NCBI GenBank assembly: GCA_951812805.1
Contig: CATOSZ010000003.1
Span: 512,557 to 576,556 of the forward strand
Reading direction: 5' to 3'
Source of the DNA: an uncultured Alphaproteobacteria bacterium
GTDB taxonomy: Bacteria > Pseudomonadota > Alphaproteobacteria > GCA-2731375
Length of the DNA stretch: 64,000 nucleotides
Both the position numbers and the translations under genes were made by a program. Shown one piece after another: positions 29,627 through 44,698 of this stretch; position 1 is the first letter of the stretch, and the number at the start of each line of letters is the position of its first letter. Under the pieces are notes generated by a model. It was not told the origin of the DNA. It worked only from the letters and a program-made list of their open reading frames with translations, and did not search any database.

Positions 29627-31170
29627 CAGCCTGTCGGACTCGGGCATGCAAGGATTGGTAAAATTGGCTTGGCGGGCGTCGATGTCATGGATTTACCCCC
29701 ATGAAGTTGCGAACGCGGGTTGGCCCGCCCGTTCAGGCGTGGCTGAGGACGAACATCCGCTTGATGTTCCAGGAGAGCGTGGCCAAGGTCCATTCCCCCT
29801 TCGCCTTGTCGAGGCCGCGCAGGCTGAACTGACGCAAGCCCATCACCGATTTGATGATGCCGAACACCGGCTCCGGCGTCTGCTTGCGAAGCGCGTAGAG
29901 CGCCCGGCCCTCGGGTGTGGCCAGGCGATGGCACATCGCCTCGAGCGGCGTCGGATCCTCGGGCGCTGGCGGCGCCTCGGCGAAGCGGTCCCGCCAGGAA
30001 AGATGGTGGTGCTCCCGGCCGAGCGCGATCAGCGGCGCGATCTCCGCTTCCCCGCAGGCCTCGACGTTGGCCTGGCTGAAGTAGCCGCTGTCCGCCAACA
30101 GGGTCTCGACCTCGCCAAGCCCGTCCGGCAGGCCGGCGAGTGCTTCGAGCGTCGGTTCGATCTGCTGCTTGTCGTTCGCCGCCTGCACCACGTCGGCGCT
30201 GACCACCAGCAGGCTGCCGGCGGCCACCGCAGCCTGGGCGTTGTAGCACTGCTCGAAGCCGCCGCCGGCCACCGGCATGATGCGCGAGTCCGGGTCCGTC
30301 AGGTTGACCTGGTCCTTCGCCCGTGGCCCCGGCTCCGGCGGCTTCGGTGGCCGCCCGCCCGGCTTGCGGCCGGTCCGCGTTTCCTTCGCCTCGCGGGCTG
30401 CCAGCTTCTCTTCGTACTCCGCCTGCTCCCGCGCATGACGCTCGGCCGCCCGCGCCTCGATCTCCGCCTTCGCCGCGGCGATCGCCGCCAGCCGGTCCTC
30501 GCGCCGTGCCAGCTCCTCCGGCACGCTCATGCCGTCGGGAACCTCGGACCGGTCCGCCGCTTCCGCCAACGCCATCAACTCCGCCACCTCGGCCCGCAGC
30601 CGGGCTTCGATCTCGCCCGCACGCTGCCACGACAGGGCGCTGTGCCGGCTCGCGTCGGCATGGATCTTCGTCCCGTCCAGCGCCACCGTGCCCAGTTGCA
30701 GCATGCCGGCCTGCCGCGCCAGCAGCAGAACCTGCACGAACAGCCCCTCGATCAGCGGCAGGAAGCGACGGCGGAACGTGGCGATCGTGTCGTGGTCGGG
30801 GTGGTCGTTTGCCGCGATGAAGCGGAAGGCCACCGAATCATAGCTCGCCCGCTCCAGCTTCCGGCTGGAATGCACCCCCGTCGCGTAGCCGTAGATCAGC
30901 AGGCCCAGCAGGACGCTCGGGTGATGCGCCGCCGAGCCCGAACCACGATAGGCCTTCACGAACGCAGAGAGATCCAGCTGCTCCAGCACATCGACCACGA
31001 AGCGCGCCAGATGACGATCAGGCAGCCATTCGTCCACCGAAGGCGGCAGAAGATAGCTGGTCTCCCGGTCAACCTGTCGAAAGTTGCTCATCACAAAATC
31101 ACCGCGCAGGAGAGAATCAGACCGTGACAGTGAATCTCATCTCGAAACTCGGCTCAAGTCCGACAGGCTG
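29627..31170 (-). mobile_element. IS1182-family element
   Basis: The element is 1544 bp with inverted repeats starting CAGCCTGTCGGACT at both ends, flanked by CTAG on each side (29623-29626, 31171-31174). CTAG is its own complement, as expected for IS1182 targets. One intact transposase gene is read on the minus strand. Confidence 0.92.
29733..31094 (-). CDS. IS1182-family transposase
   Basis: The protein is 453 aa. The N-terminal DUF772-like domain includes PSVDEWLPDRHLARFVVDVL and HHPSVLLGLLIYGYATGVHS. The transposase core has Asp in VALDGTKIHADAS and LLADSGYFSQANVEA and the late acidic residue in EPVFGIIKSVMGLRQFSLRG. A charged Ala/Glu-rich coiled coil (about 190-240) separates the halves. 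The reading frame is complete. Confidence 0.93.
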   Translation of the reverse strand: MMSNFRQVDRETSYLLPPSVDEWLPDRHLARFVVDVLEQLDLSAFVKAYRGSGSAAHHPSVLLGLLIYGYATGVHSSRKLERASYDSVAFRFIAANDHPDHDTIATFRRRFLPLIEGLFVQVLLLARQAGMLQLGTVALDGTKIHADASRHSALSWQRAGEIEARLRAEVAELMALAEAADRSEVPDGMSVPEELARREDRLAAIAAAKAEIEARAAERHAREQAEYEEKLAAREAKETRTGRKPGGRPPKPPEPGPRAKDQVNLTDPDSRIMPVAGGGFEQCYNAQAAVAAGSLLVVSADVVQAANDKQQIEPTLEALAGLPDGLGEVETLLADSGYFSQANVEACGEAEIAPLIALGREHHHLSWRDRFAEAPPAPEDPTPLEAMCHRLATPEGRALYALRKQTPEPVFGIIKSVMGLRQFSLRGLDKAKGEWTLATLSWNIKRMFVLSHA

Positions 31171-31699
31171 CTAGACGTCTGCTTCGACGCACAGCCGGGT
31201 GCTGCCTGGCGCTCGCCCTCGCCGTCATGGGGCTGGGTGGCCCTGCGATGGCCGAGGAAGTGAACGGCGTTGCCGTCGTCGTTGACGGCGATACGCTGGT
31301 GGTCGACGGGATGCGCTTCGACCTGTTCGCCCTGGACGCGCCGGAGCCGGAGCAGGTCTGCGAGGCGGACGGCAAGCTCTGGGCCTGCGGCGAAGACGCG
31401 GCCCGGGTGCTCAATCGGATCATCGCCGGCCGCCTGGTCAGCTGCAAGGCGATCGGCACCAACGCGGAAGGCGTGGCGCGCGGCATCTGCCGCATCGGCT
31501 TCGAGGGCCTCAACCGGGAAATGGCCGCCGCGGGCATGGCGCTCAGCCCGCCGGACGGGGCGGCGATCTATACGGCGGAAGAGGCCGCCGCCAGGGCCTA
31601 TCCACGCGGCCTCTGGGCCAGCCGCTTCGTGCCGCCGTGGGAATGGCGCGAGGGCCGGCGCCTGGTACCGCCGCCGGGCGGCGGCTGAGGAGCGATGGC

Positions 31700-31815: not shown

Positions 31816-32724
31816 ATGATGAGGGTTTTCAGCCAAGTCGTTCTGGTCCTGCTGGCGCTGGCCCTCGCGTCCTGCGGCGAAAGCCTTGAGGAACAGGTCG
31901 GCGCCCGGCACAAGCAGGTCGCGGACACGCTCGCCAAGCTGGGCCAGGACATCGATTCGGGGCAGATCCGCAACGCCAACCTGGTCAAGCAATACGCCAA
32001 GTTCGTCGCCGGCAAGCAGCCCGACGTCGCCGAAATGGCGACGGAGCTCGGCAAGGAAGGCACGCTGGACGCGCTGGCCTACAAATCGCTCGGCGACCGG
32101 CTGGCCAAGGTCAATCTGAAGCCGGACGACGAGAAGGCCGCCAACGAGAGCATGGAGCAGTTGCGCCGGCTCTCGGCCGCCACGGACGGCGATGTCTACA
32201 ACGATTCGCTGATCGACGTGGTGAACGTGCTGGCCGATCTCTCCCAGGGATTTCTCGCTCGCCTGCATGTGCCGGAGACGGAAAAAACCAGCGAGCAGGG
32301 CGCGGCCGATCGTCTGGTCGGCAATCCGGCCTATGGCCAATGGCGCCAGGGGCCGAGCGGCCTCACCTGGTTCTTCCTCGGGCGCTATTCGTCCTTCGGC
32401 GGGCCGTTTTACGGCGGCGGCTACCACTACGACAACTGGTACCGGGGCCGGAGCTGGAGCTATTACAACGATGTCGGCCGCAACTATTACGGCAGCCGGG
32501 CCGACAACAGCCGCTGGAACGATGCCGGCCGGCGGATCACCAACACCAAACCGAAGAAGTCCTACGGCTCGTTGAGGAGCGGCAAGCGTCTCTCCACCTA
32601 CGGCACGGCCCAGGGCATGCGGCAACCGAGTGGTGTCAAGCGCACGTCGTCCAGGAGTGGGCGGTCTCCCTATGCGGCAAGCACGCGCGGCTCCAGCCGC
32701 GGTGGCGGGCGCGGCGGCAAATAG
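31816..32724 (+). CDS. Lipoprotein with Tyr/Gly/Ser-rich C-terminus, first gene of PspA-type operon
   Basis: The protein is 302 aa. A lipoprotein signal peptide ends in the lipobox LASC (ALALASCGESLEEQVG), so it is anchored to a membrane in the envelope; Gly after Cys gives no clear retention signal. A helical region (about 20-150) with the repeat-like ADTLAKLGQDIDSGQIRNA and an Asn/Tyr/Gly-rich region follow (FFLGRYSSFGGPFYGGGYHY), and it ends in a basic Ser/Arg/Gly tail (SRGGGRGGK). The family is known to me only as a neighbour of DUF350/PspA genes. ATG 31819 is an alternative start. It is 25 bp upstream of the DUF350 gene. Confidence 0.7.
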   Translation: MMRVFSQVVLVLLALALASCGESLEEQVGARHKQVADTLAKLGQDIDSGQIRNANLVKQYAKFVAGKQPDVAEMATELGKEGTLDALAYKSLGDRLAKVNLKPDDEKAANESMEQLRRLSAATDGDVYNDSLIDVVNVLADLSQGFLARLHVPETEKTSEQGAADRLVGNPAYGQWRQGPSGLTWFFLGRYSSFGGPFYGGGYHYDNWYRGRSWSYYNDVGRNYYGSRADNSRWNDAGRRITNTKPKKSYGSLRSGKRLSTYGTAQGMRQPSGVKRTSSRSGRSPYAASTRGSSRGGGRGGK

Positions 32725-32749
32725 GGCTACGCAGGGAAAGGCGGACAGG

Positions 32750-33643
32750 ATGGGATTCGAATTCATCGACGCGCGGAGCGCCGGCATGCTGGCGATGGAT
32801 TTCGCCATCATCTTCGTCGTGCTGCTGTCCATCCGGGCACTCTTCGGCTTCATTTCCGGCGTCAACGCGACGAGCGAGCTGGCGAGCAAGGACAATTTCG
32901 CCTTCGGCATCGCGCTGACGGGGGCCACGGCCGGCGTCGCCATCATGCTGTCCGGCGTGGCGACAGGCGGCCTGGCGCGGAGTTTCGGCGAAGAGGCGGC
33001 GCTGATGGCCGTCTTCGCGTTGGTCGGCCTGGTGCTGATGTGGCTCACCCGGTTGATCTTCGACCGGGTGACGCTGCCCGGCGTCTCGGTGAAGGAAGAG
33101 ATCGACCGCGCCAACACGGCGATCGCCATCGTCGATGCCGGCAACATCGTCGCCACGGCGATCATGATCCGTGCCGTCATCATTTCCGCCGACAACGACA
33201 TCACCGCCGGCCTGATCGCCGTCTTCATCGGCTATGTCGCCTCGCAGATCATCCTCACGCTGACCGCCTTCTACCGGGTCCGCCTGTTCGCCAGCCGTAA
33301 CGCCGGCGGCCAGTTCCAGGAGGCGGTCCGCGACGGCAACATGGCGCTCGCGCTGCGCTTCGCCGGCTTCCAGATCGCCGTCGCCTTCGCCGTCACCGCG
33401 GCCTCGGACCTCGACCTCCTCGACCAGTTCGCCAATCCGGTCTTGAAGGGGCTCGCCTGGGGTGTCGCCTCGCTGGTTCTGGCGGTGGCCCTGGTCATCC
33501 TCAGCGCCATCGCCGAGCGTTTCGTGCTGGCCGGCGTCGACGTCTCGGAGGAGGTCGACCAGCAGCGCAACATCGGCGTCGGCCTGGTCGAGGTGGCGGT
33601 CTACGTCTCCATCGGCCTGCTGCTGAACGGTCTGCTCGGGTGA
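32750..33643 (+). CDS. Membrane protein with two DUF350 (YjfL-like) domains
   Basis: The protein is 297 aa with about eight hydrophobic helices. The sequence is an internal duplication: each half has a stretch of the type FAFGIALTGATAGVAIMLSG, an acidic VSVKEEIDRANTAIAIVDAG or VDVSEEVDQQRNIGVGLVEV, and flanking helices. This is the DUF350/YjfL pattern, whose members sit beside PspA. The start ATG 32750 has AGGA upstream. It probably acts in inner-membrane stress handling together with the polyamine and channel genes; biochemical role unknown. Confidence 0.85.
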   Translation: MGFEFIDARSAGMLAMDFAIIFVVLLSIRALFGFISGVNATSELASKDNFAFGIALTGATAGVAIMLSGVATGGLARSFGEEAALMAVFALVGLVLMWLTRLIFDRVTLPGVSVKEEIDRANTAIAIVDAGNIVATAIMIRAVIISADNDITAGLIAVFIGYVASQIILTLTAFYRVRLFASRNAGGQFQEAVRDGNMALALRFAGFQIAVAFAVTAASDLDLLDQFANPVLKGLAWGVASLVLAVALVILSAIAERFVLAGVDVSEEVDQQRNIGVGLVEVAVYVSIGLLLNGLLG

Positions 33644-33656
33644 GGGAGGCCGGGCG

Positions 33657-35420
33657 GTGTCCGGCCGGGTCGAAGAGGAGTCCCGCCCCCGCCGGCTGAT
33701 CGCGCGGCTCGGCCCGACCTTCGGCCACGACGCGGCGCTGATCCTGATCACCGGCGTTCTGGCCGGGTGCGGTCTGGTCTACCAATATCTGCTGGCCCAT
33801 GCCGCCGGCCGCATCCTGGGCGCGGTCGAGGCGGTCATCTTCACCATGATCGGTCTGATGATCGTTTCCATGGGTGTGGGCTCATTCCTCGCCCGCTATT
33901 TCCGCGATCCCTTTACCGGCTTCGCCTGGCTGGAGGCGCTGCTGGCCCTGCTCGGCGGCCTCTCCGTGCTGGTCATGGGGGGGATCATCGCCCTCGTCGC
34001 CGTGCTGCCCCGGATGCTGGGCGAGACCTACGATCTGCCGCCGGACCTGATCCCGCGTGGCGGCCTGGTCGAAAACCTGGAGACGGTCGCCCGGATTGCA
34101 CCCTACGTGCTGGGCGCCATCCTCGGCATTCTGGTCGGTATGGAGATTCCGCTGCTGGCCCGGATCCGGCAAAGCCTGCATGCCCGCCACCTGACCCACA
34201 ACATCGGCACGATCTACGGCGCCGACTATGTGGGCGCGGGCGTCGGCGCCGCGCTCTGGGTCCTGTTCATGCTGGCGATGGAGCCGGCCCGCGCAGCGGT
34301 GCTGACGGCGGCGGCAAACCTGGCGATCGGTCTGCTGTTCCTGCTGCTCTATGGGCGTCGCGTGCGCCTGATATCGGCCGTGTTGGCGCTGCACGCGCTG
34401 GTCTCCGTCGCCTTGATCGTGGTGGCGCTGCAGGGCGTCGGCTGGTCCCGCGCGCTGGAGGATCTGCTCTACGAAGACCAAGTGGTGCATTCGATCGATA
34501 CCGGCCACCAGCGGCTGACGGTGACCGAGCGCCTGGTCCACCCGGCCCGCCCGCCGGTGCATACTTTCTTCATCAATGGCCGCCTACAGTTCGAAAGCAC
34601 CGACGAGCACATCTATCACGCCATGCTGACCTATCCGCCCCTGCTCTCCGCCGCCCGGCGGGAGCGTGTCCTGATCATCGGCGGCGGTGACGGGTTGGCC
34701 CTGCGCGACGTGCTGCGCTGGGAACCACGCGAGGTGATGCTGCTCGACCTTGACCCCCGACTGGTCGAGTTCTTCTCGGTACCGATGGAAACGTCGGGCC
34801 GCGTAGTCAACCAGCCGTTCCTGGACCTGAACCGCCGTGCCTTCGCCGATCCCCGGGTCGAGACCCGGTTCGGCGACGCCTTCCTGACGGTCGACCGGCT
34901 GCTGCGCGAACAGCGACGCTTCGACGTCGTCCTGGTCGATCTGCCCGATCCCTCGAATGCAGACCTCAACCGGCTCTATACCGTGAAGTTCTACAGCAAG
35001 CTGCGCGGCCTGCTGGCGGGCGACGGCGCCATGGCGGTGCAGTCGACCTCGCCCTACCATGCCCGCAAGGCCTTCCTGTCGATTTTCAAGACCATCGCGC
35101 AGGCGGGCTTCGCCCATGTCGAGGCCTACCGGCAGAACGTACCGAGTTTCGGCGAGTGGGGCTGGACCCTCGCCGTCGCCAACGGCCGACCGGCGAGCCG
35201 GCGCATCGCCGAGGCGTTAGCGTTGCCCGTCGACGACGGCTGGTCCACCAAGGCGATCCTGCAAGGCGCCTTCGCCTTTCCGAAGAATTTCTTCGCCGGC
35301 CTGGAAGACATCGAAATCTCGCGCCTCGGCAATGCCGCTGCCTACCGCTACCATCAACAGGCCTGGGAGCGCGAACAGGGCATGGTGGCGGATCGAGAAA
35401 CTTCAGGGACACGCCCTTGA
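33657..35420 (+). CDS. Membrane-bound spermidine synthase-like aminopropyltransferase
   Basis: The protein is 587 aa, start GTG 33657. The N-terminal half (about 20-270) has seven or so membrane helices (VLAGCGLVYQYLLAHAAG, LGAILGILVGMEIPLLA). The C-terminal half is a spermidine synthase-like fold with the SAM-type site VLIIGGGDGLALRDVL, the acidic end of strand 2 VMLLDLDPRLVEFF and VVLVDLPDPSNADL. The family transfers aminopropyl groups from decarboxylated SAM to polyamines or related amines. This two-part architecture recurs next to DUF350 and PspA-like genes. Its stop overlaps the TTGACA of a candidate internal promoter. Confidence 0.85.
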   Translation: MSGRVEEESRPRRLIARLGPTFGHDAALILITGVLAGCGLVYQYLLAHAAGRILGAVEAVIFTMIGLMIVSMGVGSFLARYFRDPFTGFAWLEALLALLGGLSVLVMGGIIALVAVLPRMLGETYDLPPDLIPRGGLVENLETVARIAPYVLGAILGILVGMEIPLLARIRQSLHARHLTHNIGTIYGADYVGAGVGAALWVLFMLAMEPARAAVLTAAANLAIGLLFLLLYGRRVRLISAVLALHALVSVALIVVALQGVGWSRALEDLLYEDQVVHSIDTGHQRLTVTERLVHPARPPVHTFFINGRLQFESTDEHIYHAMLTYPPLLSAARRERVLIIGGGDGLALRDVLRWEPREVMLLDLDPRLVEFFSVPMETSGRVVNQPFLDLNRRAFADPRVETRFGDAFLTVDRLLREQRRFDVVLVDLPDPSNADLNRLYTVKFYSKLRGLLAGDGAMAVQSTSPYHARKAFLSIFKTIAQAGFAHVEAYRQNVPSFGEWGWTLAVANGRPASRRIAEALALPVDDGWSTKAILQGAFAFPKNFFAGLEDIEISRLGNAAAYRYHQQAWEREQGMVADRETSGTRP

Positions 35421-35471
35421 CATGGGCCGAACGTCCCCCATATCTGTGACATGTCACACGTGACCAGTCAC
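35417..35471 (+). promoter_or_regulatory. Internal promoter with tandem GTGAC palindromes
   Basis: TTGACA (35417-35422) is followed after 18 bp by TATCTG (35441-35446). A perfect 14-bp palindrome TGTGACATGTCACA (35445-35458) and a second near-perfect one GTGACCAGTCAC (35460-35471) come immediately after. This looks like a tandem operator over a promoter for the DUF2170-PspA-DUF2491-channel part of the operon, which starts 64 bp downstream. The 4-bp spacer rules out an ordinary CRP site. Confidence 0.5.
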
Positions 35472-35535
35472 ATAGAAGAGCCAACCCAACGAGGCGAGAA
35501 TCGACGTTTCGAGGATCGCCGGGAAGGACGAGACG

Positions 35536-36153
35536 ATGACCGAACGTCGGGCACGCAAAGCCGCCAGCAGCATGGCGGAACGCAAGCGCAACCAGCGCAC
35601 CCGGCTTCGGGAATCCGGTCTGGTGCCGGTCGAGGTGTGGATACCGAGACGGCACAGGCCAGTGCTGCGGCGGCTCGAGGCCTTGCTTCGACAAGACATC
35701 GTGCCGGAATTGCCGCGTCCCTATCACGTGACGGCTAGCGGGGAGAGAGTCATGGACCTCAACATGCTTCGAGAATCATTGAACGGCCTAACAACCGAAA
35801 ACGGCTTCCACTTGAGCGCGAGCGAGAGTGACGGCGACGTCGTGGAGATCGTCGTCGAGGATCGCGAGGAGTTTCCGATCGTCGTGTCGACGGACGAGGA
35901 ACAGGTGCTTTGCCTGACCTATCTGTTCGACGACAGTCAGGTAAAGGCGGATGCGCGAACCGAGATGCTGTCGACCATGCTGGAGATGAACGTGCCTCTG
36001 CCGCTCTCCTCCTTCGGCAAGGTCGGAGCGCGCTATGTGATCTTCGGCGCGCTCGCCGCGAACTGCACCGTGCAGGACGTGGTCACCGAAATCGAGGTGT
36101 TGAGCGACAACACCCTGGAGGCGATCGAGGCCGTCGGCGGCCACCTCGCCTGA
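35536..36153 (+). CDS. DUF2170 (YjfI-like) protein with basic N-terminal extension
   Basis: The protein is 205 aa; the start ATG 35536 has GGAAGGA upstream. Residues 75-205 match E. coli YjfI (DUF2170): PLPLSSFGKVGARYVIFGAL and the acidic VTEIEVLSDNTLEAIEAV. Residues 1-60 are highly basic and resemble a short DNA-binding ribbon-helix-helix-like segment (RLRESGLVPVEVWIPRRHRP). The YjfI family accompanies PspA/IM30 homologues. The basic N-terminus and its position just downstream of two palindromes suggest it may regulate its own operon (inference). Confidence 0.8.
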   Translation: MTERRARKAASSMAERKRNQRTRLRESGLVPVEVWIPRRHRPVLRRLEALLRQDIVPELPRPYHVTASGERVMDLNMLRESLNGLTTENGFHLSASESDGDVVEIVVEDREEFPIVVSTDEEQVLCLTYLFDDSQVKADARTEMLSTMLEMNVPLPLSSFGKVGARYVIFGALAANCTVQDVVTEIEVLSDNTLEAIEAVGGHLA

Positions 36154-36199
36154 ACCGAACAACTTTGAAACGCACGAAGAAACGGAAAAGGAGACAGTC

Positions 36200-36898
36200 A
36201 TGAGCATTCTTGCCAAACTCGTCACCGCGATGAAGGGCGCCGCCAGCGAGGCCGGCGAGGCCGTGGTCGATCATCAGGCGCTTCGCATACTGGACCAGGA
36301 AATGCGCGACGCGGAAAAGGATCTGGGCGAGGCGAAGGGCCATCTGACGTCGGTCATGGCGCAGCGCAAGGGCGTACAGCGGGAAATCGACCGGCTGACC
36401 AGCGCCATCTCCGAGCACGAGGGCTTTGCGGCCGCCGCGCTGGAGAAGGGCGACGAGGGCCTCGCGGGCGAAGTCTGCGAGAAGATCGCCGCCTATGAGG
36501 AAGAGCTGGGTGTACAGCAGGGTGCTGCCGAACAGCTCGACAAGGGCCTCGACCAGCTCAAGCAGAACATCAAGACGACCGAGCGCAACATCGCCGCCAT
36601 GAAACGCCAGGTGAACGTGGTGAAGGCGACGGAGAAGGTGCAGAAGGCGAGCGCTGCGGCCTCGCAGCGCTTCTCCGGCACCAACAGCTCGCTCGGTTCG
36701 GCCACCGACTCGCTGGAGCGGATCAAGAAGCGTCAGCAGGAACGCTCGGACCGCATGGACGCGGCGGCCCAGCTGCACGAGGAAAGCGAAGGCGCCGACC
36801 TGGACAAGCGCCTGCAGGCCGCCGGCATCACCAAGACCGGCCAGTCCGGCTCGGACGTGCTGGCCCGCCTGAAGGCCAAAAAGGGCGGCGGCTCGTGA
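36200..36898 (+). CDS. PspA/IM30 family protein (YjfJ-like)
   Basis: The protein is 232 aa, start ATG 36200 with AAAGGAG. It is almost fully alpha-helical: coiled coils with heptad-like spacing run from about 20 to 160 (DLGEAKGHLTSVMAQRKGVQ, LGVQQGAAEQLDKGLDQLKQ). The start SILAKLVTAMKGAASEAGEA fits the amphipathic membrane-binding helix of PspA. IM30/PspA proteins form ESCRT-III-like rings that stabilise the inner membrane. The C-terminal GITKTGQSGSDVLARLKAK is a short linear tail. It overlaps the next gene by 4 bp. Confidence 0.85.
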   Translation: MSILAKLVTAMKGAASEAGEAVVDHQALRILDQEMRDAEKDLGEAKGHLTSVMAQRKGVQREIDRLTSAISEHEGFAAAALEKGDEGLAGEVCEKIAAYEEELGVQQGAAEQLDKGLDQLKQNIKTTERNIAAMKRQVNVVKATEKVQKASAAASQRFSGTNSSLGSATDSLERIKKRQQERSDRMDAAAQLHEESEGADLDKRLQAAGITKTGQSGSDVLARLKAKKGGGS

Positions 36899-37536
36899 TC
36901 CTCAGGCGTCTCTTCGGCGGTGGCGGGAACGACGAACCCCCGCCGCCGCCGGAGCATGCCTGGGACCTCAGGACCGGCGACTTCCTGACCATGGCGCTCG
37001 CCGCGCCGGAAGGGTTGTCGTCGGCCGAGTTGCAGGTGACCGGCGTGCATGCGCTGGACTTCGGCGGGCCGAGCAAGACCCGCCGCGTGCTCCACCTCGA
37101 CGGCGGACAGGCCGGGCCGCTCCAGCTCTGGCGCGACGAACGCGAGCGGGTGGCGATCGCCCGGACGTTGCAGCGCGAAGAGGTGGAACGGCTGTTCGAC
37201 CTCGAGGTTTTCGGCACCCTGTTCGATCCCGACGCGCCGCCCAACGTGGTGCTGGAACGCCAGGAGGCGCCCGGCAACCTCGCCGGCTGGACCGCCGCCG
37301 CCTATCGCCAGGAAGGCGCGGAACAGGCCTGGTACCACCCCCAGGATCCGGCGACCGCGGTCATCGACGAACATGTTTCCGACGACGCCGAGGGCGTCGA
37401 TCACTACCGGCTGGTGAGCGACGACCGCCGCCACGGAATCGAGATCGAGGTCTTCGACACCGGCCGTACGGAGGTATACGCTGTGGCCCTGCTGGCGGCC
37501 GGCGTGATCGAGGCGCTCTGGCCCGCAAGCAATTGA
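36895..37536 (+). CDS. PspA-neighbour protein, DUF2491 (YjfK)-like
   Basis: The protein is 213 aa, GTG start overlapping the PspA stop by 4 bp. A short N-terminal stretch with a proline run (DEPPPPPEHAWDLR) precedes a mainly beta-strand domain (VTGVHALDFGGPSKTRRVLH, QLWRDERERVAIARTLQREE). No catalytic motif is evident. Position and size match YjfK/DUF2491, which follows YjfJ in the yjf operon, but the sequence signature is weak, so the name is partly from context. Confidence 0.5.
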   Translation: MILRRLFGGGGNDEPPPPPEHAWDLRTGDFLTMALAAPEGLSSAELQVTGVHALDFGGPSKTRRVLHLDGGQAGPLQLWRDERERVAIARTLQREEVERLFDLEVFGTLFDPDAPPNVVLERQEAPGNLAGWTAAAYRQEGAEQAWYHPQDPATAVIDEHVSDDAEGVDHYRLVSDDRRHGIEIEVFDTGRTEVYAVALLAAGVIEALWPASN

Positions 37537-37563
37537 GGTGCATCCAGGTCGGGGGGTGTCACA

Positions 37564-38667
37564 GTGCTGGGGCTGATACATCGGCTGCGTCGCCGCCGCC
37601 CGCGCTTTGCGAGCCGGTCGGAAGAGGCCGGCGCGAAGGCGATCACCTTTCTCTTCGTCTATCTGCTGGTCATCATCACCCTGCATGTCGCCGCGATGAT
37701 GGCCTTCGAAGGCCTCGGCATCGCCGACGCCACCTGGCTCACCGTTACCACCCTCACCACCGTCGGTTACGGCGACATCTCGGCGGCCACGGGCGCCGGG
37801 CGCCTGTCGACGGTGGTGCTGGTCTATGCCGGCGGCATCTTCGTCCTGGCCAAAGGGGCGGGGGACTATTTCGATTATCGCGCCGAGCGGCGCCAACGCA
37901 TGCTGACGGGACGCTGGAGTTGGAAAATGGCCGACCATCTACTGTTGATCCACGCGCCGTATCGCGGCGGCGTTCGCTATTTCACCACGCTCATCGAGCA
38001 GTTGCGGCAGTCTGAGTGGGGCGCCGATCGTGACGTCATCGTCGTCACCGACCAGTGGTCCGAGGGCCTGCCCGCCGCCTTGCACGGACGCGGCATCGTG
38101 CATGTCGACGGGCGCGCCGACGATCCCGAGGTGCTGCGCGCCGCTTCGGCGGACCAGGCCGCGGCGATTGCGGTGCTGGTCGCGGACCTCGAGAACCAGG
38201 CCTCCGATTCCATCGCCTTCGATCTGGTGCACCGGCTGACGGAACTCGGCACCGAGGCGCCGATCCTGGTCGAGTGCCTGGAGGACGGCAATCGCGAGCG
38301 GTTGCGTCAGGCCGGCGCCGATTCGGTGCTGCGGCCGATGCGCGGCTATCCCGAGATGATGGTCCGCGCCCTGGTCGCGCCCGGCAGCACGGAGATCATC
38401 GCCGACCTGCTGACGACGCAGGGCGACGAATGCGTGCGATATGAGTGCGAGTTGCGCGACGTCCCCTGGCGCCGCGTCGTCGACACCTTGATGGACGAGG
38501 GCTACGGCACGGCGATCGGCTATGCCACCCGCAGCGACGGCCGGGTCGTCATCAACCCGGCGCCCAACGACGGCATCGACGCGCGCGGTATCTTCGTCAT
38601 CGCCAAGCACGGCCGGGAGGCGATGACCGACGACCTGCGCGCCACCCTCGACACGCTCGCCGCCTGA
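37564..38667 (+). CDS. Two-TM potassium channel with RCK-like cytoplasmic domain
   Basis: The protein is 367 aa, GTG start. Two membrane helices (ITFLFVYLLVIITLHVAAMM and STVVLVYAGGIFVLAKGAG) enclose a pore helix with the selectivity filter TVGYGD (WLTVTTLTTVGYGDISAATG). The cytoplasmic part (about 115-360) resembles a TrkA-N/RCK-type domain, though no clear GxGxxG is visible; ILVECLEDGNRERLRQAGAD is its best conserved segment. Relatives are KCH/MthK-like channels found with PspA and DUF350. It ends the operon and is 4 bp from the convergent M24 gene. Confidence 0.88.
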   Translation: MLGLIHRLRRRRPRFASRSEEAGAKAITFLFVYLLVIITLHVAAMMAFEGLGIADATWLTVTTLTTVGYGDISAATGAGRLSTVVLVYAGGIFVLAKGAGDYFDYRAERRQRMLTGRWSWKMADHLLLIHAPYRGGVRYFTTLIEQLRQSEWGADRDVIVVTDQWSEGLPAALHGRGIVHVDGRADDPEVLRAASADQAAAIAVLVADLENQASDSIAFDLVHRLTELGTEAPILVECLEDGNRERLRQAGADSVLRPMRGYPEMMVRALVAPGSTEIIADLLTTQGDECVRYECELRDVPWRRVVDTLMDEGYGTAIGYATRSDGRVVINPAPNDGIDARGIFVIAKHGREAMTDDLRATLDTLAA

Positions 38668-38671
38668 AGCG

Positions 38672-39847
38672 TCAATCGACGACGAACAACTCGCGCGGGA
38701 CGTCCGCCAGGCATTCGACGCCGTTGTCGGTGATCAGGATGCTCTCCGTGATCTCCATCCCCCAATCGTCGAACCAAAGACCCGGCATGAAGTGGAAGGT
38801 CATGCCGGGGCGAAGTTCACTGTCGTCTTCGGGGCGGAGGCTCATGGTCCGCTCGCCCCAGTCGGGGGGATAGGCGAGACCGATGGCATAGCCGCAGCGG
38901 CTGGACTTTTCGATGCCGCGGGCCGCCAGCACGGCGAAGAAGGCGCGGGCGATATCACCGGTCGTCGCCCCGGGACGCGCCGCATCCAGGCCGGCGGCGA
39001 TCCCCTCCTGCAGCGCCGCCTCGGCATTGCGCCAGCGCTCCGGCGGGCGGCCGAGATAGACCGTGCGGGAGAGCGGCGCGTGATAGCGCCGGTAGCAGCC
39101 GGCGATCTCGAAGAAGGTCCCCTGCCCGGTTTCCATCGGCCGGTCGTCCCAGGTCAGATGGGGCGCGCCGGCCTCCGCCCCGCTCGGCAGCAGCGGCACG
39201 ATCGCCGGATAGTCGCCGCCATGGCCCTCGATGCCGAGCAGGCCCGCCCGGTAGATTTCCGCCACCAAAGCGTTCTTGGCGATGCCGGGCCGCACCGTCT
39301 GCAGGATCGCCGCGTGCATGGTCTCGACGATGCGGGCGGCGATCCGCATATGCGCGATTTCCGCCGGCGACTTCACCGCGCGCTGCCAGTTCACCAGCGC
39401 GGTCGCATCGAGAAAGCGGGCGTCCGGCAGTTCGACACCCAGCACCCGGTGTGCCTCGGCCGAGTAATAGTAATTGTCCATCTCGACGCCGATCGCTGCC
39501 CCGGCCCAACCCCGTTCGCGGATCAGCGCCGCCAGGGTCTGCATCGGGTGGCGTTTCGTCGATTGAACGTAGCTGTCCGGATAGGACTGGATATTCGCGT
39601 CCCCCATGAAGACGGTCAGGCGGGCGCCGTTGGCATCCTGGCCGCGACCCCACCAGACGGGCTCGCCCTCGTGGCCGAGCAGGACCCCTTGATGGACGTA
39701 GAAAGACCAGCCGTCGTAGCCCGTGAGCCAGGCCATGTTGGCCGGATCGGTGACGAACAGCAGCTCGATCTCGGCTGCCGCCATGGCCCGGCGGGTGCGG
39801 GCGATGCGCACCTCGTATTCGGCCCGCTCGAAGCCAAAGCCGCTCAT
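38672..39847 (-). CDS. M24-family hydrolase, DoeA/EutD (ectoine hydrolase)-like
   Basis: The protein is 391 aa with an N-terminal creatinase domain (LLFVTDPANMAWLTGYDGW) and a pita-bread C-terminal domain. The match to DoeA is strong in WWGRGQDANGARLTVF, AIGVEMDNYYYSAEAHRVLG and GYAIGLAYPPDWGERTMSL. All five usual M24 metal ligands are changed: EIAG for DFG, APLSRT for SDxTRT, YAIG for HGIG, FMPG for IEPG and ITES for RIED. This is as in creatinase, a non-metal C-N hydrolase. It probably opens the ectoine or hydroxyectoine ring. It overlaps the upstream dehydratase gene by 4 bp (ATGA). Confidence 0.78.
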   Translation of the reverse strand: MSGFGFERAEYEVRIARTRRAMAAAEIELLFVTDPANMAWLTGYDGWSFYVHQGVLLGHEGEPVWWGRGQDANGARLTVFMGDANIQSYPDSYVQSTKRHPMQTLAALIRERGWAGAAIGVEMDNYYYSAEAHRVLGVELPDARFLDATALVNWQRAVKSPAEIAHMRIAARIVETMHAAILQTVRPGIAKNALVAEIYRAGLLGIEGHGGDYPAIVPLLPSGAEAGAPHLTWDDRPMETGQGTFFEIAGCYRRYHAPLSRTVYLGRPPERWRNAEAALQEGIAAGLDAARPGATTGDIARAFFAVLAARGIEKSSRCGYAIGLAYPPDWGERTMSLRPEDDSELRPGMTFHFMPGLWFDDWGMEITESILITDNGVECLADVPRELFVVD

Positions 39848-40845
39848 GCCCGCGCCTCCTCCAGCGCGTTGGCCCCGTTCAACAGGGCGAGGTGGACACC
39901 CATGTCGATATTGCCGCCGTTTAAGACGACGACCGTCGGACCGCGAGCCTCGACCTTGCCGGCCAGCAGGGCGGCGATGCCGACGGCGGCCCCGCCCTCG
40001 ACGATCTGGCGTTCCTCCCGGTAGGCGTGACGGACCGCTTCGGCGATCTCGGCCTCTTCGACCCGGGCGGTTTCATCGACCAATGCCGCGACCATGCGGA
40101 AGCTGTGGGCGTTGTCGAGACCGATGCCGCCGCCCAGGCTGTCGGCGAGGCTGGCGACCTCCGCCACCTCCACCGGCCGGCCGGCTTCCAGGCTTTCGAT
40201 CATCGCCGCGCCCCTGGCCATGGTGACGCCGACGACGCGCAGGTCCGGCCGCCGCGCCTTGGCCGCCAACGCCACGCCGGCGATCAACCCGCCACCCGAA
40301 AGCGGCACGATCAGGGTTTCGACGTCCCCCGCCTGCTCGACGATCTCAAGGCCGAGGGTGCCCTGGCCGGAAATCACCGCGACGTCGTCGAAGGGCGAAA
40401 CCATGGTCATGCCCGCTTCGGCGACCAGGCGTTTGGCCTCGACCTCCGCCTCGTCCTGGCTGTCGCCGTGGATGCGGATCTCCGCACCGAGCGCGCGGAT
40501 CGCCTCAACCTTCACGGCCGGTACCAGGCTGGACATGCAGATGACGCAGCGGATCCCGGCCTCCGCCGCCGCATGGGCGAGGCCGCGGCCATGGTTGCCG
40601 GTCGAGACGCCGACGATGCCGGCGGCCCGCGCGGCCTCGGGCAGGGAAAGCACGGCGTTGGTCGCACCGCGCAGCTTGAAGCTGCCCGTAGTCTGCCAGT
40701 GCTCCAGTTTCAAATGCACCGGCGTGCCGGTCAGCGCCGACAGGGTCGGCGAGGGCACCAGGGGCGTCGTGCGAAGACGGCCCGCGAGCCGCGTGCGCGC
40801 TTCCTCGACACCCCCGATCGTCGCCCGTTCCGTCGCTTCGGCCAT
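39844..40845 (-). CDS. eutB: PLP-dependent dehydratase, EutB-like (hydroxyectoine utilisation)
   Basis: The protein is 333 aa of the serine/threonine dehydratase fold type II. The PLP Lys is in TTGSFKLRGATNA. The phosphate-binding glycine loop is LSGGGLIAGVALAAK, and the Ser/Asn/Gly motif is STGNHGRGLAHAA. It lacks an ACT regulatory domain. The pairing with the DoeA-like gene, with a 4-bp overlap, matches the eutB-eutD order seen in ectoine catabolic operons, where EutB dehydrates a hydroxylated intermediate. Threonine dehydratase or hydroxyaspartate dehydratase activity is the alternative. The gene is divergent from the ABC transporter operon. Confidence 0.75.
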   Translation of the reverse strand: MAEATERATIGGVEEARTRLAGRLRTTPLVPSPTLSALTGTPVHLKLEHWQTTGSFKLRGATNAVLSLPEAARAAGIVGVSTGNHGRGLAHAAAEAGIRCVICMSSLVPAVKVEAIRALGAEIRIHGDSQDEAEVEAKRLVAEAGMTMVSPFDDVAVISGQGTLGLEIVEQAGDVETLIVPLSGGGLIAGVALAAKARRPDLRVVGVTMARGAAMIESLEAGRPVEVAEVASLADSLGGGIGLDNAHSFRMVAALVDETARVEEAEIAEAVRHAYREERQIVEGGAAVGIAALLAGKVEARGPTVVVLNGGNIDMGVHLALLNGANALEEARA

Positions 40846-40919
40846 GCCAGGTCCCCCCTCGATTCGGTGGCATCATTCGCGCCGCCGAACAAACTGGCAA
40901 GGCGTTTCCAGGGAAGGAA

Positions 40920-40979
40920 TTGGTTAACCGTCGTAATTCAGCTATATGGTGTCGTAGTCGGACTAGTGCCTGTGCACAG
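40920..40979 (+). promoter_or_regulatory. Candidate promoter and palindrome before the ABC operon
   Basis: TTGGTT (40920-40925) is 17 bp from TATATG (40943-40948). A 10-bp palindrome CTGTGCACAG (40970-40979) lies downstream, as expected for an operator over the start site. The 8-bp palindrome GGTTAACC overlaps the -35. Confidence 0.35.
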
Positions 40980-41049
40980 ACGGCACAAAGACTCGATGCC
41001 TGGAGGCGCGCGCGACGCGTTGCCCGACATGGTCGACGAGGGGAGCGAC

Positions 41050-42195
41050 GTGGCGGAGACATCCAGTGATGGAGTCGCGGTTGGGGGGGCCGGCGGCGCG
41101 AACGACAATGCCTTCGTGCGGTTCGCCGAAGTGCAGAAGAGCTACGACGGCATCAGCCTCGTGGTGAAGTCGCTCAACCTCGACATCGCCAAGGGCGAGT
41201 TTTTGACCATGCTGGGGCCGTCCGGGTCCGGCAAGACGACCTGCCTGATGATGCTGGCCGGGTTCGAGCCGGCGACCTACGGCGAGATCTATCTCGACGG
41301 TCAGCCGATCAACAACGTGCCGCCGCACAAGCGCGACATCGGCATGGTGTTTCAGAACTATGCCCTGTTTCCGCACATGACGGTGGCGGAGAACCTGGCC
41401 TTCCCGCTGAACGTCCGCCGGATGGGCAAGGCGGAGGTGCAGGAACGGGTACAGCGCGCCCTCGACATGGTGCAGCTGGGTGCCTTCGGCGGCCGGCGGC
41501 CGGCGCAGCTTTCCGGCGGCCAGCAGCAGCGCGTGGCGGTTGCGCGCGCCCTGGTTTTCGATCCCAAGCTGGTCCTGATGGACGAACCGCTCGGCGCGCT
41601 CGACAAGCAGCTGCGCGAGCAGATGCAGTACGAGATCAAGCACATCCACGAAAACCTCGAGGTCACGGTGGTCTATGTCACCCACGACCAGTCCGAGGCG
41701 CTGACCATGTCGAACCGCATCGCGGTCTTCAACGACGGCGTGATCCAGCAGCTCGCCCCGCCGGCCGATCTTTACGAGCGGCCGGACAATTCCTTCGTCG
41801 CCCAGTTCATCGGCGAGAACAACAAACTGACCGGCACGCTCGCCGCCCGGAACGGCACGGGCTGCGAGGTGACGCTGGATACCGGCGAGAGCGTGAAGGC
41901 GCTCGCCGTCAATACCGGCGCCGTCGGCGAGCGCACCATGCTGTCGCTGCGCCCGGAGCGGGTCATGGTCGACCCGGGCGAGGGGCAGTGCGATACCCGC
42001 GTGCCCGGCCGGGTCGAGGAACTGATCTATCTCGGCGACCATATCCGCACGCGGATCTCCGTCTGCGGGCGCGACGATTTCATCGTCAAGGTGCCGAATT
42101 CCACGGAACACGCTGGCCTCGCGCCCGGCAACGACGTCGCGCTCGGCTGGCGGCTGGAAGATTGCCGCGCGCTCGACATGCCGGCGAACGAATAG
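41050..42195 (+). CDS. ABC transporter ATP-binding protein, PotA-type
   Basis: The protein is 381 aa from GTG 41050 (site GAGGGGAG), the start that gives the normal PotA length. Walker A GPSGSGKTT, Q-loop GMVFQNYALFPHMTV, signature LSGGQQQRVAVARAL, Walker B LVLMDEPLGALD and the His switch YVTHDQSEA are all present. The C-terminal TOBE domain binds ligands or regulatory subunits. It is the first gene of the four-gene transporter operon. The class imports polyamines, amines or small quaternary compounds. Confidence 0.93.
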   Translation: MAETSSDGVAVGGAGGANDNAFVRFAEVQKSYDGISLVVKSLNLDIAKGEFLTMLGPSGSGKTTCLMMLAGFEPATYGEIYLDGQPINNVPPHKRDIGMVFQNYALFPHMTVAENLAFPLNVRRMGKAEVQERVQRALDMVQLGAFGGRRPAQLSGGQQQRVAVARALVFDPKLVLMDEPLGALDKQLREQMQYEIKHIHENLEVTVVYVTHDQSEALTMSNRIAVFNDGVIQQLAPPADLYERPDNSFVAQFIGENNKLTGTLAARNGTGCEVTLDTGESVKALAVNTGAVGERTMLSLRPERVMVDPGEGQCDTRVPGRVEELIYLGDHIRTRISVCGRDDFIVKVPNSTEHAGLAPGNDVALGWRLEDCRALDMPANE

Positions 42196-42268
42196 GGGGT
42201 CGGGCAACCATGCCCACGCGGAGCCGGTGCTCCGAAATTTGGAAAGCAACCTAGGGAGGAGATTCAAG

Positions 42269-43366
42269 ATGAGACTTGCTGCAAAGACCCTGCTGGCCCT
42301 GACGACCGCGGGGGCGCTCGCCGCGCTCGCGACAGCGGCGCCGGCACAGGAACTGGTCGTGGTGTCGTGGGGCGGCGCTTATTCCAAGAGCCAGCAGAAC
42401 GCCTATCACGATCCCTACATGCAGGCCAATCCGGGCGTGAAGATCGTCAACGACGACTCGGCCCCCGAGGCGGTCTCGAAGCTGCGCGCCATGAACGAGG
42501 TGAAGAACGTCACCTGGGACCTGGTCGACGCGGTGGCCTCGGACGCCATCCGGCTTTGTGACGAGGGCCTGGCCGAACCGATCAACCATGACGAAGTGCT
42601 GGCCCCGGCGCCCGACGGCTCACCTGCTTCCAAGGACTTCGGTGCCTTCATCGTCTCCGAGTGCTTCATTCCGCAGATCGTCTATTCGACGACCTTCGGC
42701 TACCGCAAGGACAAGCTCGCCACCGCGCCGACGAGCGTCTGCGACGTCTTCGACCTGAAGAAATTCCCGGGCAAGCGGAGCCTGGAAAAGAAGCCGATCA
42801 ACAACTTCGAATGGGCCCTGTTGTGCGACGGCGTGGCGCCCGACAAGATCTACGACGTGATGGGCGCCGACGGCGGCGTCGACCGGGCCCTGAAGAAGCT
42901 CGACACCATCAAGGACCAGGTGATCTGGTGGACCAAGGGCGCACAGACGCCGCAGCTGCTGGCCGACGGCGAAGTGGTCATCGGCTCGACCTACAACGGT
43001 CGCCTGTTCTCGGTGATCGAGGAGGAAAAACAGCCGATCGGCATGCTGTGGGACTGGCAGGTCTTCGATATCGACGGCTGGATCATCCCGGCCGGCACGA
43101 AGAACCTGGAAGCGGTGAAGAAGTATCTGCGCTACGCCACCGACACCCAGCGCCTCGCGGACCAGGCCAAGTATATTTCCTACGGCCCGACCCGCGCGTC
43201 TTCCGCGCCGCTCGTCGGCAAGCACGCGACCCTCGGCATCGACATGAAGGCGCACATGCCGACGGATCCGAAGAACGCCAAGACCACCCTGCTCTACAAC
43301 TATGAATTCTGGGCCGACAACCAGGACGACTTCACGGAGCGGTTCGAGGCGTGGCTCGCCAAGTAG
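42269..43366 (+). CDS. Periplasmic substrate-binding protein of PotABCD-type ABC transporter
   Basis: The protein is 365 aa from ATG 42269 with the site AGGGAGGAG. The signal peptide KTLLALTTAGALAALATAAP ends at AQELVVVSWGGAYSKSQQ, the start of a type II binding fold (SBP_bac_8/PotD). The conserved segments WTKGAQTPQLLADGEVVIGS and DGWIIPAGTKNLEAVKKY follow. It binds a small cationic or zwitterionic ligand in the periplasm. Genetic linkage to DoeA/EutB-like genes makes ectoine-type compounds or amidines plausible; polyamine is the alternative. Confidence 0.9.
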   Translation: MRLAAKTLLALTTAGALAALATAAPAQELVVVSWGGAYSKSQQNAYHDPYMQANPGVKIVNDDSAPEAVSKLRAMNEVKNVTWDLVDAVASDAIRLCDEGLAEPINHDEVLAPAPDGSPASKDFGAFIVSECFIPQIVYSTTFGYRKDKLATAPTSVCDVFDLKKFPGKRSLEKKPINNFEWALLCDGVAPDKIYDVMGADGGVDRALKKLDTIKDQVIWWTKGAQTPQLLADGEVVIGSTYNGRLFSVIEEEKQPIGMLWDWQVFDIDGWIIPAGTKNLEAVKKYLRYATDTQRLADQAKYISYGPTRASSAPLVGKHATLGIDMKAHMPTDPKNAKTTLLYNYEFWADNQDDFTERFEAWLAK

Positions 43367-43387
43367 GCGGCCGAGCGTAGCGGCCAA

Positions 43388-43411
43388 CCGGGGCGGCTCC
43401 GGCCGCCCCGG
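43388..43411 (+). terminator. Strong stem-loop between binding protein and permease genes
   Basis: CCGGGGCGGC pairs with GCCGCCCCGG around TCCG: a perfect 10-bp stem. It lies 21 bp after the binding-protein stop and 18 bp before the permease. Such intercistronic hairpins often stabilise the binding-protein mRNA and lower downstream expression. Confidence 0.7.
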
Positions 43412-43429
43412 CGCCGTGGGAAAGCCCGG

Positions 43430-44698
43430 ATGACGGACGTGACGGGGACGAACGGGGAGCTGGTCACGGCCGACGGCCGGCCGTTGCGCGCGTCTCTAGC
43501 CCGAGCCCTGCGCCGTCAAAAGCTGCAGGCCCTGCTGCTCGTGGCACCCCTGTTCCTGTTCATTCTGGTCAGTTTCGTTCTGCCGATCGCCGACATGCTG
43601 TTCCGATCGGTGGAGAACTCCATCGTCGCCAAGGTTCTGCCCGAGACGACGACCGCCCTCCGGAGCTGGGATCCCCAAGGCGACGCGCTGCCGGGGGAGG
43701 AGGTCTACGCGGCGCTCTATCGCGATATGCTGATCGCCGCCAAGAACCGCACGGCGACCCGGGTCGGTCAGCGGCTGAACTACGAGTCCTCCGGCTTTTC
43801 CAGCCTGTTTCGCTCCAGCGCCCGCAAGGTCAAGCGCATTAAGGCCGGACCCTACAAGCCGGCGATGATCAAGGCGCACAAGAAGTGGGGCAAACTCGAG
43901 ACCTGGCAGGTCATCGCCAACTACAACGCGAGGTACACGCCGGGCTACTTCTATGCGGCGGTCGACGCCCGGATCGACACCGACGGCGGCGTCACCATGC
44001 AGGACGAGGACAAACGGATCTACGTCAATCTGTTCCTGCGGACCCTGGGTTTGAGTCTCACCATCACGCTCGCCACCCTGGTGCTCGGCTTTCCGGCCGC
44101 CTATCTGCTGGCCCTGCTGCCGACGGCAAAGAGCAACCTGCTGCTGATCCTGGTGCTGCTGCCGTTCTGGACCTCGCTGCTGGTCCGGACCACGGCCTGG
44201 ATCGCCCTGCTGCAACAACAGGGGGTGATCAACGAATTCCTGGTCTTCCTGTCGATCGTCGGCACCGACGACCGGCCACGGCTGATCCACAACCAGGTCG
44301 GCACGGTGATCGCCATGACGCATATCCTGCTGCCGTTCATGGTCCTGCCGCTCTACAGCGTGATGAAGACCATCCCGAAAAGCTACGTGCGCGCCGCCAT
44401 TTCCCTCGGCGCCCATCCCTGGCGCGCCTTCTGGGCCGTCTATTTCCCGAGCACCGTGCCCGGCATCGGCGCCGGCGCGATCCTCGTCTTCATCCTGGCG
44501 ATCGGCTACTACATCACCCCCGACCTGGTCGGCGGCACGTCGGGGACCTTCATCTCCAACCGGATCGCGCTGCACATCTCTTCGTCGCTCAACTGGGGGC
44601 TCGCGGCGGCGCTCGGCGTGATCCTGCTCGGTATCGTGCTGGCGCTCTATCTGCTGTACGACAAGATCGTCGGCATCGACAACATGAAGCTCGGCTGA
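43430..44698 (+). CDS. ABC transporter permease, PotB-type
   Basis: The protein is 422 aa, longer than a typical PotB (about 280-300) because about 130 polar residues (roughly 60-190, containing RSSARKVKRIKAGPYKPAMI) are inserted between helix 1 and the rest. The conserved permease EAA-like loop is ISLGAHPWRAFWAVYFPSTV. About six membrane helices are visible. The inserted domain is probably periplasmic and is seen in other alphaproteobacterial PotB relatives. Confidence 0.9.
   Translation: MTDVTGTNGELVTADGRPLRASLARALRRQKLQALLLVAPLFLFILVSFVLPIADMLFRSVENSIVAKVLPETTTALRSWDPQGDALPGEEVYAALYRDMLIAAKNRTATRVGQRLNYESSGFSSLFRSSARKVKRIKAGPYKPAMIKAHKKWGKLETWQVIANYNARYTPGYFYAAVDARIDTDGGVTMQDEDKRIYVNLFLRTLGLSLTITLATLVLGFPAAYLLALLPTAKSNLLLILVLLPFWTSLLVRTTAWIALLQQQGVINEFLVFLSIVGTDDRPRLIHNQVGTVIAMTHILLPFMVLPLYSVMKTIPKSYVRAAISLGAHPWRAFWAVYFPSTVPGIGAGAILVFILAIGYYITPDLVGGTSGTFISNRIALHISSSLNWGLAAALGVILLGIVLALYLLYDKIVGIDNMKLG

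Follow-up and report, generated by a model that had tools for sequence, protein, structure and literature searches.

We analyzed a 64,000-nucleotide stretch of DNA (hereafter the window; G000:C3:512557-576556) from the 7.42 Mb genome of an uncultured alphaproteobacterium, in which seven consecutive genes encode a lipoprotein, a double DUF350 membrane protein, a membrane-fused aminopropyltransferase (hereafter the synthase), a DUF2170 protein, a PspA protein, a DUF4178-like protein and a potassium channel (Table 1). Here we describe the conservation of this putative operon and examine whether its synthase may work outside the cytoplasm on the C-terminus of the lipoprotein. The initial annotation had placed seven same-direction genes at 31816-38667 and, indeed, all seven open reading frames (ORFs) are present on the plus strand, the last one ending at 38667. 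Six of the seven gene labels also hold, whereas the DUF2491-like label given to the sixth gene fails, as described below.

Table 1. Genes of the putative operon, with coordinates in the window and the profile matches of their products.
Product	Position	Strand	Matches and remarks
Lipoprotein, 302 aa; lipobox LASC; Ser/Arg/Gly-rich tail, end Gly-Gly-Lys	31816..32724	+	no Pfam match
Double DUF350 membrane protein	32750..33643	+	PF03994 4.9e-33, three overlapping stretches within one protein; start codon read
Membrane aminopropyltransferase	33657..35420	+	PF01564 (Spermine_synth) 8.8e-29; NF002956 557.7 bits
DUF2170 protein (CesT/Tir-like, BacA/YjfI family) with basic N-terminal extension	35536..36153	+	PF09938 6.6e-28
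PspA/IM30 protein, YjfJ-type	36200..36898	+	PF04012 (PspA_IM30) 4.2e-44
DUF4178-like protein	36895..37536	+	8/35 orthologues match DUF4178
Potassium channel, two transmembrane helices plus RCK, MthK-like; filter TVGYGD	37564..38667	+	PF07885 (Ion_trans_2) 6.2e-9; PF02254 (TrkA_N) 2.3e-6; MthK 7e-9

Organization and conservation of the locus

The intergenic gaps across the seven genes are, in order, 25, 13, 115, 46, −4 and 27 nt. A sigma-54 promoter upstream, as proposed for the bac operon of Pseudomonas aeruginosa, was not supported (best site of at least 9/12 in 5/80 upstream regions vs 66/1600 shuffles), and neither sigma-70-like sites nor terminators rose above shuffled sequences between 31000 and 39000; since these signals do not stand out, it is the spacing and conservation of the genes that suggest their co-transcription.

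To describe this conservation we scanned for relatives of the synthase with a three-sequence alignment, which returned 324 relatives in 454 candidate stretches, and kept the best 80 loci, mostly from Gammaproteobacteria (one of them, L044, apparently sharing its contig with G016). Many of these loci are cut by contig ends, and we call untruncated the 54 in which the operon lies more than 1.5 kb away from either end. Profiles built on the window's proteins detected the synthase in all 80 loci, DUF2170 in 75, DUF350 in 73, PspA and the lipoprotein in 72 each, the DUF4178-like protein in 71 and the channel in 57. All seven genes were found in 41 untruncated loci, while the channel went undetected in 11 and the synthase stood alone in 2. 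There are two main gene orders, that of the window (36 loci) and one in which the lipoprotein-DUF350 pair is shifted to the end (17 loci). Since the detected operon genes share one strand in 80/80 relatives, the set is not due to chance. A loose cluster around an insertion sequence, without common function, could have been suspected from the IS1182-family transposase gene that directly precedes the operon (29733-31094, minus strand) and from the rarity of the synthase in Alphaproteobacteria (2/385 genomes of the class draw at E<=1e-60, the window's own included), but the neighborhood survey, with its single strand and its 41 complete loci, refutes this idea, to which we give almost no credence. 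The conservation of the gene combination as an operon makes a common function for PspA, DUF350, the aminopropyltransferase and the K+ channel likely. The coupling of these elements that had been put forward from the window therefore stands as a conserved operon, although not as a combination new in kind (Ravi et al., 2024).

In the window's own order, a full-length synthase was found in 2/15 genomes; membrane-fused spermidine-synthase-like proteins as such are common, with 31/299 Pseudomonadota genomes exceeding the NF002956 cut-off. When the other ORFs of 82 loci were clustered, the recurring families included a small RHH-like gene (56 loci), a rhomboid (19), an S-adenosylmethionine decarboxylase (AdoMetDC; 17) and an M50B-like protease (15). 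The small gene lies between the DUF4178-like gene and the channel and has no Pfam match in representatives, so its RHH label is that of Ravi et al. The intramembrane protease genes, either rhomboid or M50B-like, adjoin the operon within L023-L102.

An operon of this kind, PspA-DUF2170-DUF350-7TM-synthase-lipoprotein-DUF4178, has already been described as the "second major group" of PspA systems (Ravi et al., 2024; PMC11237479). The window shares with it the DUF2170-PspA dyad, a synthase fused to an N-terminal domain of seven transmembrane helices (7TM), an 8TM (double) DUF350 and a lipoprotein, recognized here by its lipobox. It differs in the added 2TM-RCK K+ channel and in the basic extension of DUF2170, which replaces the separate small RHH-like gene, and its counterpart of the DUF4178 protein is only DUF4178-like, through the orthologues in Table 1. 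In the excerpts of that paper a potassium channel is mentioned only for the related ATP-grasp (third) group, and neither topology nor a Gly-Lys terminus is discussed for the second group. The same excerpts suggest that polyamines are linked to membrane dynamics and put forward a role of PspA systems in monitoring polyamines or the aminopropylation of other substrates, citing Li et al. (2019) for the latter. The operon is thus a variant of a published type, and three of our results go beyond the literature found: the tracking of AdoMetDC, the probable outer location of the catalytic domain and the Gly-Lys terminus.

The initial annotation had also seen a partial match to the yjfIJKL locus, which is right for DUF2170, PspA and DUF350 but not for YjfK. 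The yjfIJKLMC operon of E. coli has, like the window, these three proteins and an exported protein with a Ser/Arg/Gly-rich tail, and a channel is present in its Rhizobium version. Its enzyme, however, is not an aminopropyltransferase but the ATP-grasp ligase YjfC, DUF2491 takes the place of DUF4178, its DUF350 is single, and its exported DUF1190 protein ends mostly in Gly-Gly while the window lipoprotein ends in Gly-Lys. When E. coli YjfC, YjfM (DUF1190) and YjfK were used as phmmer queries, no match was found in 83 loci, among them positions 22001-48000 of the window. We therefore rejected DUF2491 for 36895-37536, which has no Pfam match at 0.01; the best of its orthologues to match DUF4178 did so at 4.3e-6, the window's own member having no match. 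The bac operon of P. aeruginosa (Wallart et al., 2024; PMC10948618) resembles the window in its extended DUF2170 protein BacA and its PspA-like BacB, but lacks, according to the excerpts of that paper, a spermidine synthase within bac or beside it.

Chemistry and topology of the membrane enzyme

The synthase consists of half a major facilitator superfamily (MFS) domain (residues 19-235), a helix (239-269) and a catalytic domain (275-575), and its AlphaFold2 model has a predicted local distance difference test score of 89.6. It exceeds the cut-off of NF002956 (PRK03612, polyamine aminopropyltransferase) with 557.7 vs 472 bits and stays below that of TIGR00417, the canonical SpeE, with 103.4 vs 249.55 bits. 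The catalytic residues (GGGDG, D366, D407, D428, D431, Y441, Q285 and Q462) are invariant in 38/38 homologues, and the best structural match of the catalytic domain is the Thermus triamine/agmatine aminopropyltransferase (VIA-align, Z 34.8).

Among 37 operon genomes, class 1 AdoMetDC is encoded in 24 and class 2 (eukaryote-type) AdoMetDC in 12 of the other 13, which leaves a single genome, G402 (2.4 Mb), without either class. Class 2 is otherwise scarce, as it was found in 1/143 drawn Gammaproteobacteria, namely the carrier G408, and in 0/14 control genomes. In the order of G408 (119 genomes) an AdoMetDC accompanies 32/32 synthase carriers and 18/87 non-carriers (Fisher 1.8e-16, uncorrected for kinship, a value that overstates independence because operon carriers are related, and so counts for less than it seems). 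Thirteen of these carriers have class 1 and 19 class 2, none has both, and class 2 occurs in only 4/87 non-carriers. The notion that the enzyme needs no AdoMetDC since Shewanella lacks SpeD was discarded; E. coli SpeD finds nothing in the 13 operon genomes without class 1, yet 12 of them have class 2. In 7/13 class 1 carriers (G569, G594, G616, G636, G654, G670 and G685) AdoMetDC is an ORF of 107-108 aa directly beside the synthase. From these sequence comparisons, the membrane enzyme is very probably an AdoMetDC-dependent aminopropyltransferase.

The NF002956 score, the Thermus match and the AdoMetDC association would also suit an ordinary polyamine aminopropyltransferase whose active site lies in the cytosol and which makes spermidine or a longer polyamine at the inner membrane to stabilize lipids and modulate the K+ channel, an explanation in line with the initial annotation and close to that of Ravi et al. 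(2024). It has against it that the genome already possesses a speD and soluble speE pair, ~95 kb downstream, and further the topology of the protein. Hydropathy and the AlphaFold model both gave seven transmembrane helices (H1-H7). In the 38 homologues the K+R/D+E counts are positive at the N-terminus (3.1/1.1) and in loops L2 (2.1/0.3), L4 (2.6/1.9) and L6 (3.0/0.4), and neutral or negative in L1 (1.0/1.0), L3 (1.1/2.8), L5 (0.1/0.9) and the stretch after H7 (1.9/3.4). Remote members show the same alternation of positive charge, with loops 3 and 5 slightly positive. H1-H6 match the six-helix MFS half fold with VIA-align (Z 15.8-18.3 over ~180 residues, among the matches listed), while Foldseek alone gave no match of the transmembrane domain to MFS at E<=0.001. 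MFS halves begin and end in the cytosol, so helix 7 would lead outward.

The cysteine content points in the same direction. We counted 2 cysteines in the 25,420 residues that make up the last 310 positions (the catalytic domain) of 82 homologues, compared with 185 in 20,500 for the transmembrane part of the same proteins, 46 in 2,553 for soluble SpeE stretches, 149 in 11,566 for RCK, 151 in 10,010 for DUF2170 and 1,444 in 140,521 for background neighbors; the exported lipoprotein has 3 in 17,020. The catalytic domain of 16 remote members has none in 4,587 residues, a count that leaves out L139, L142, L143 and L146, in which the choice of ORF is unsettled (1, 0, 0 and 1 cysteines, respectively).

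Some observations weigh against an outer location. The stretch after H7 still carries positive charge, and cytosolic PspA is Cys-poor too (11 in 17,089), so a low cysteine content is not proof by itself. Likewise Cys-poor, and with seven transmembrane helices, are the membrane-fused spermidine synthases (SpdSyn) of NF037959, a weak comparison in which L160 and L169 look like wrong ORFs and which leaves no clean fused cytosolic control. Even so, the seven helices, the loop charges, the match to an MFS half, the low cysteine content of the homologues and its absence in remote members together make it probable that the catalytic domain is extracytoplasmic. The odd helix number, the loop charges and the near-absence of cysteine in turn speak against the ordinary cytosolic enzyme. 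So does the work of Li and colleagues from 2019, who reportedly described MFS/SpdSyn fusions with AdoMetDC and DUF350 that did not complement a SpdSyn mutant, left the acceptor unknown and, reportedly, proposed no extracytoplasmic domain; the window would share with those fusions a membrane protein joined to a SpdSyn-like domain, DUF350 and AdoMetDC. All in all, we hold the ordinary enzyme to be rather unlikely. Within the excerpts of a limited open-licence literature, no statement on an extracytoplasmic catalytic domain or on the Gly-Lys terminus was found.

Beside some remote aminopropyltransferases without a long DUF350 there are flavin amine oxidases that look exported, with twin-arginine- or lipobox-like signals (L204, L205 and L206, and by eye L207 and L211), which would fit chemistry outside the cytoplasm.

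The C-terminus of the exported proteins

The lipoprotein ends in Gly-Lys in 74/74 complete homologues, at the end of a Ser/Arg/Gly-rich tail that is otherwise variable (72 distinct sequences of the last 30 residues). We read 22 regions around remote aminopropyltransferases, 7 of them with a long DUF350, 12 without it and 3 on contigs too short. In 7/7 of the regions with a long DUF350 (L201, L215 and L218-L222) a gene near that of the enzyme, and on its strand, encodes a protein that has a hydrophobic segment at its N-terminus and ends in Gly-Lys; five of these proteins have 79-100 aa and two more than 500 aa. ORFs ending in Gly-Lys amount to 7/561 near the enzyme and 5/1,228 far from it, and no far one has an N-terminal hydrophobic segment. 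One of the regions, L201, lies on an Alteromonas mediterranea plasmid and encodes AdoMetDC, a "toxic anion resistance" (TelA-type) protein, DUF4178, DUF350 and a 510-aa lipoprotein ending in Gly-Lys, PspA being absent among the genes listed. A plasmid search with the window lipoprotein gave no match.

We also read 17 proteins of the ligase (YgiC/YjfC type) group, comprising 14 DUF1190 proteins and 3 unnamed ligase neighbors. They end in Gly-Gly in 14/17 cases, in Gly-Ser in 2 and otherwise in 1, and never in lysine. In 15/17 the gene of the ligase is a direct neighbor or lies one gene off, and in a Photobacterium record it lies elsewhere; a Proteus record was also among those read. YgiC and YjfC carry the annotation peptide-spermidine ligase, an activity that Pederick reportedly described for the E. 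coli enzymes in 2023. Because the addition of an aminopropyl group to the side chain of lysine gives a structure similar to spermidine, both operon groups could yield an exported protein with a polyamine tip.

A C-terminal lysine can also serve for attachment to peptidoglycan, as in Braun's lipoprotein (Lpp), for which this is established. Such an anchor, with the enzyme modifying a different amine of the envelope, for instance that of a lipid, is a serious rival, and the lipobox, the long flexible tail and the terminal lysine of the lipoprotein all agree with it. However, no L,D-transpeptidase was recognized among the recurring neighbor families, in which no family scan aimed at this enzyme was made; the Gly-Lys end recurs beside the remote long-DUF350 aminopropyltransferases on proteins whose lengths and bodies are not alike; and the ligase-group proteins end mostly in Gly-Gly. 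We consider the anchor unlikely, a little more so than the ordinary cytosolic enzyme. Two further points weigh against the lysine as aminopropyl acceptor: none of the 12 remote regions without a long DUF350 has a Gly-Lys protein, although several have a short or single-DUF350 gene, and the split by long DUF350 was chosen after the data were seen. That the lipoprotein lysine is the acceptor is thus a tentative proposal, with a chance slightly under even. The name "membrane spermidine synthase" used in the initial annotation is in any case doubtful, because the catalytic domain is apparently extracytoplasmic, the genome has its separate speD-speE pair and the partner lipoprotein carries an invariant C-terminal lysine.

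Accompanying proteins, flanking genes and a proposed function

The PspA of the window belongs to the PspA/IM30 family, YjfJ type, and falls short of the profile of the classical phage shock protein PspA (TIGR02977; 32 bits, cut-off 242.95). Its DUF2170 partner is a relative, and not an equivalog, of the BacA regulator (NF050185; 77.5 bits, cut-off 300, aligned residues 12-204). The basic N-terminal extension of this protein is RHH/MazE-like below the cut-off (PF11455, 18.4 bits vs 22), a hidden Markov model of it matches only eight alphaproteobacterial proteins in the 83 loci, the window's included, and the crystal chain 8q8o aligns to the protein only from residue 71 on. We rejected the extension as a new fusion because the BacA profile spans it too. 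The excerpts of PMC10948618 do not call the BacA extension DNA-binding and report that BacA acts negatively on its own operon, which makes a repressor role for DUF2170 plausible by analogy.

By sequence, the window channel is an MthK-like RCK channel with two transmembrane helices, a K+ filter and an RCK/TrkA_N domain. The proteins at the channel position (n=59: those of 57 of the 80 loci, the window's and that of L021) are longer than 330 aa in 46 cases, of 250-330 aa in 7 and shorter than 200 aa in 6, and representatives show three architectures, namely 2TM plus RCK (window, L024), voltage-gated with Ion_trans (L062) and a bare pore (L098). That different architectures fill one slot suggests that a K+ channel is important for the operon; the lack of a detectable channel in 11/54 untruncated operons counts against it.

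Around the operon, a small exported-looking ORF at 31227-31688 (plus strand) is SNase-like (nuclease) by eye, without a Pfam match and with only weak NCBIfam matches to hypothetical proteins. Downstream lie genes for the ectoine hydrolase DoeA and the hydroxyectoine dehydratase EutB (38672-40845, minus strand) and for a PotA-like ATP-binding cassette importer (40027-44698, plus strand), with an ATPase above the potA cut-off, a PotB/PotH-like permease and, by eye, a putative substrate-binding partner.

The reading we prefer, to which we give a probability of about 0.45, is that the operon encodes an envelope-stress module whose outer aminopropyltransferase most likely modifies the C-terminal Gly-Lys of the lipoprotein. 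In its cytosolic branch, PspA, an ESCRT-III-like membrane scaffold, would serve membrane stress together with the CesT-like DUF2170 protein, the DUF4178-like protein and the K+ channel, although what PspA, DUF2170 and the channel each do is a matter of conjecture. In its envelope branch, the aminopropyltransferase would be held in the inner membrane by the half-MFS domain and expose its catalytic domain on the outer side of that membrane. The donor would be decarboxylated S-adenosylmethionine (dcAdoMet), which would be produced in the cytosol by an AdoMetDC whose gene lies at another place in the genome and would be passed across through a dimer of two half-MFS domains, and aminopropylation of the Gly-Lys end would give the lipoprotein a spermidine-like cationic tip. 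It tells against this scheme that we know of no dcAdoMet outside the cytoplasm.

More tentatively still, the membrane aminopropyltransferases linked to a long DUF350 may in general form an extracytoplasmic protein-modification system, in which dcAdoMet would arrive through a half-MFS dimer and the lysine of exported Gly-Lys tails would be aminopropylated, while YgiC and YjfC would ligate spermidine onto Gly-Gly tails. The invariant Gly-Lys terminus of the exported neighbor names a candidate acceptor for membrane-fused spermidine-synthase-like proteins, for which we know of no reported one. If this is true, two enzymes unrelated to each other would provide surface proteins with a polyamine tip in stress operons of the PspA/DUF350 kind, and the system would represent a post-translational modification that is new to our knowledge, a new site for reactions of dcAdoMet and a logic shared by the two groups of PspA/DUF350 operons.

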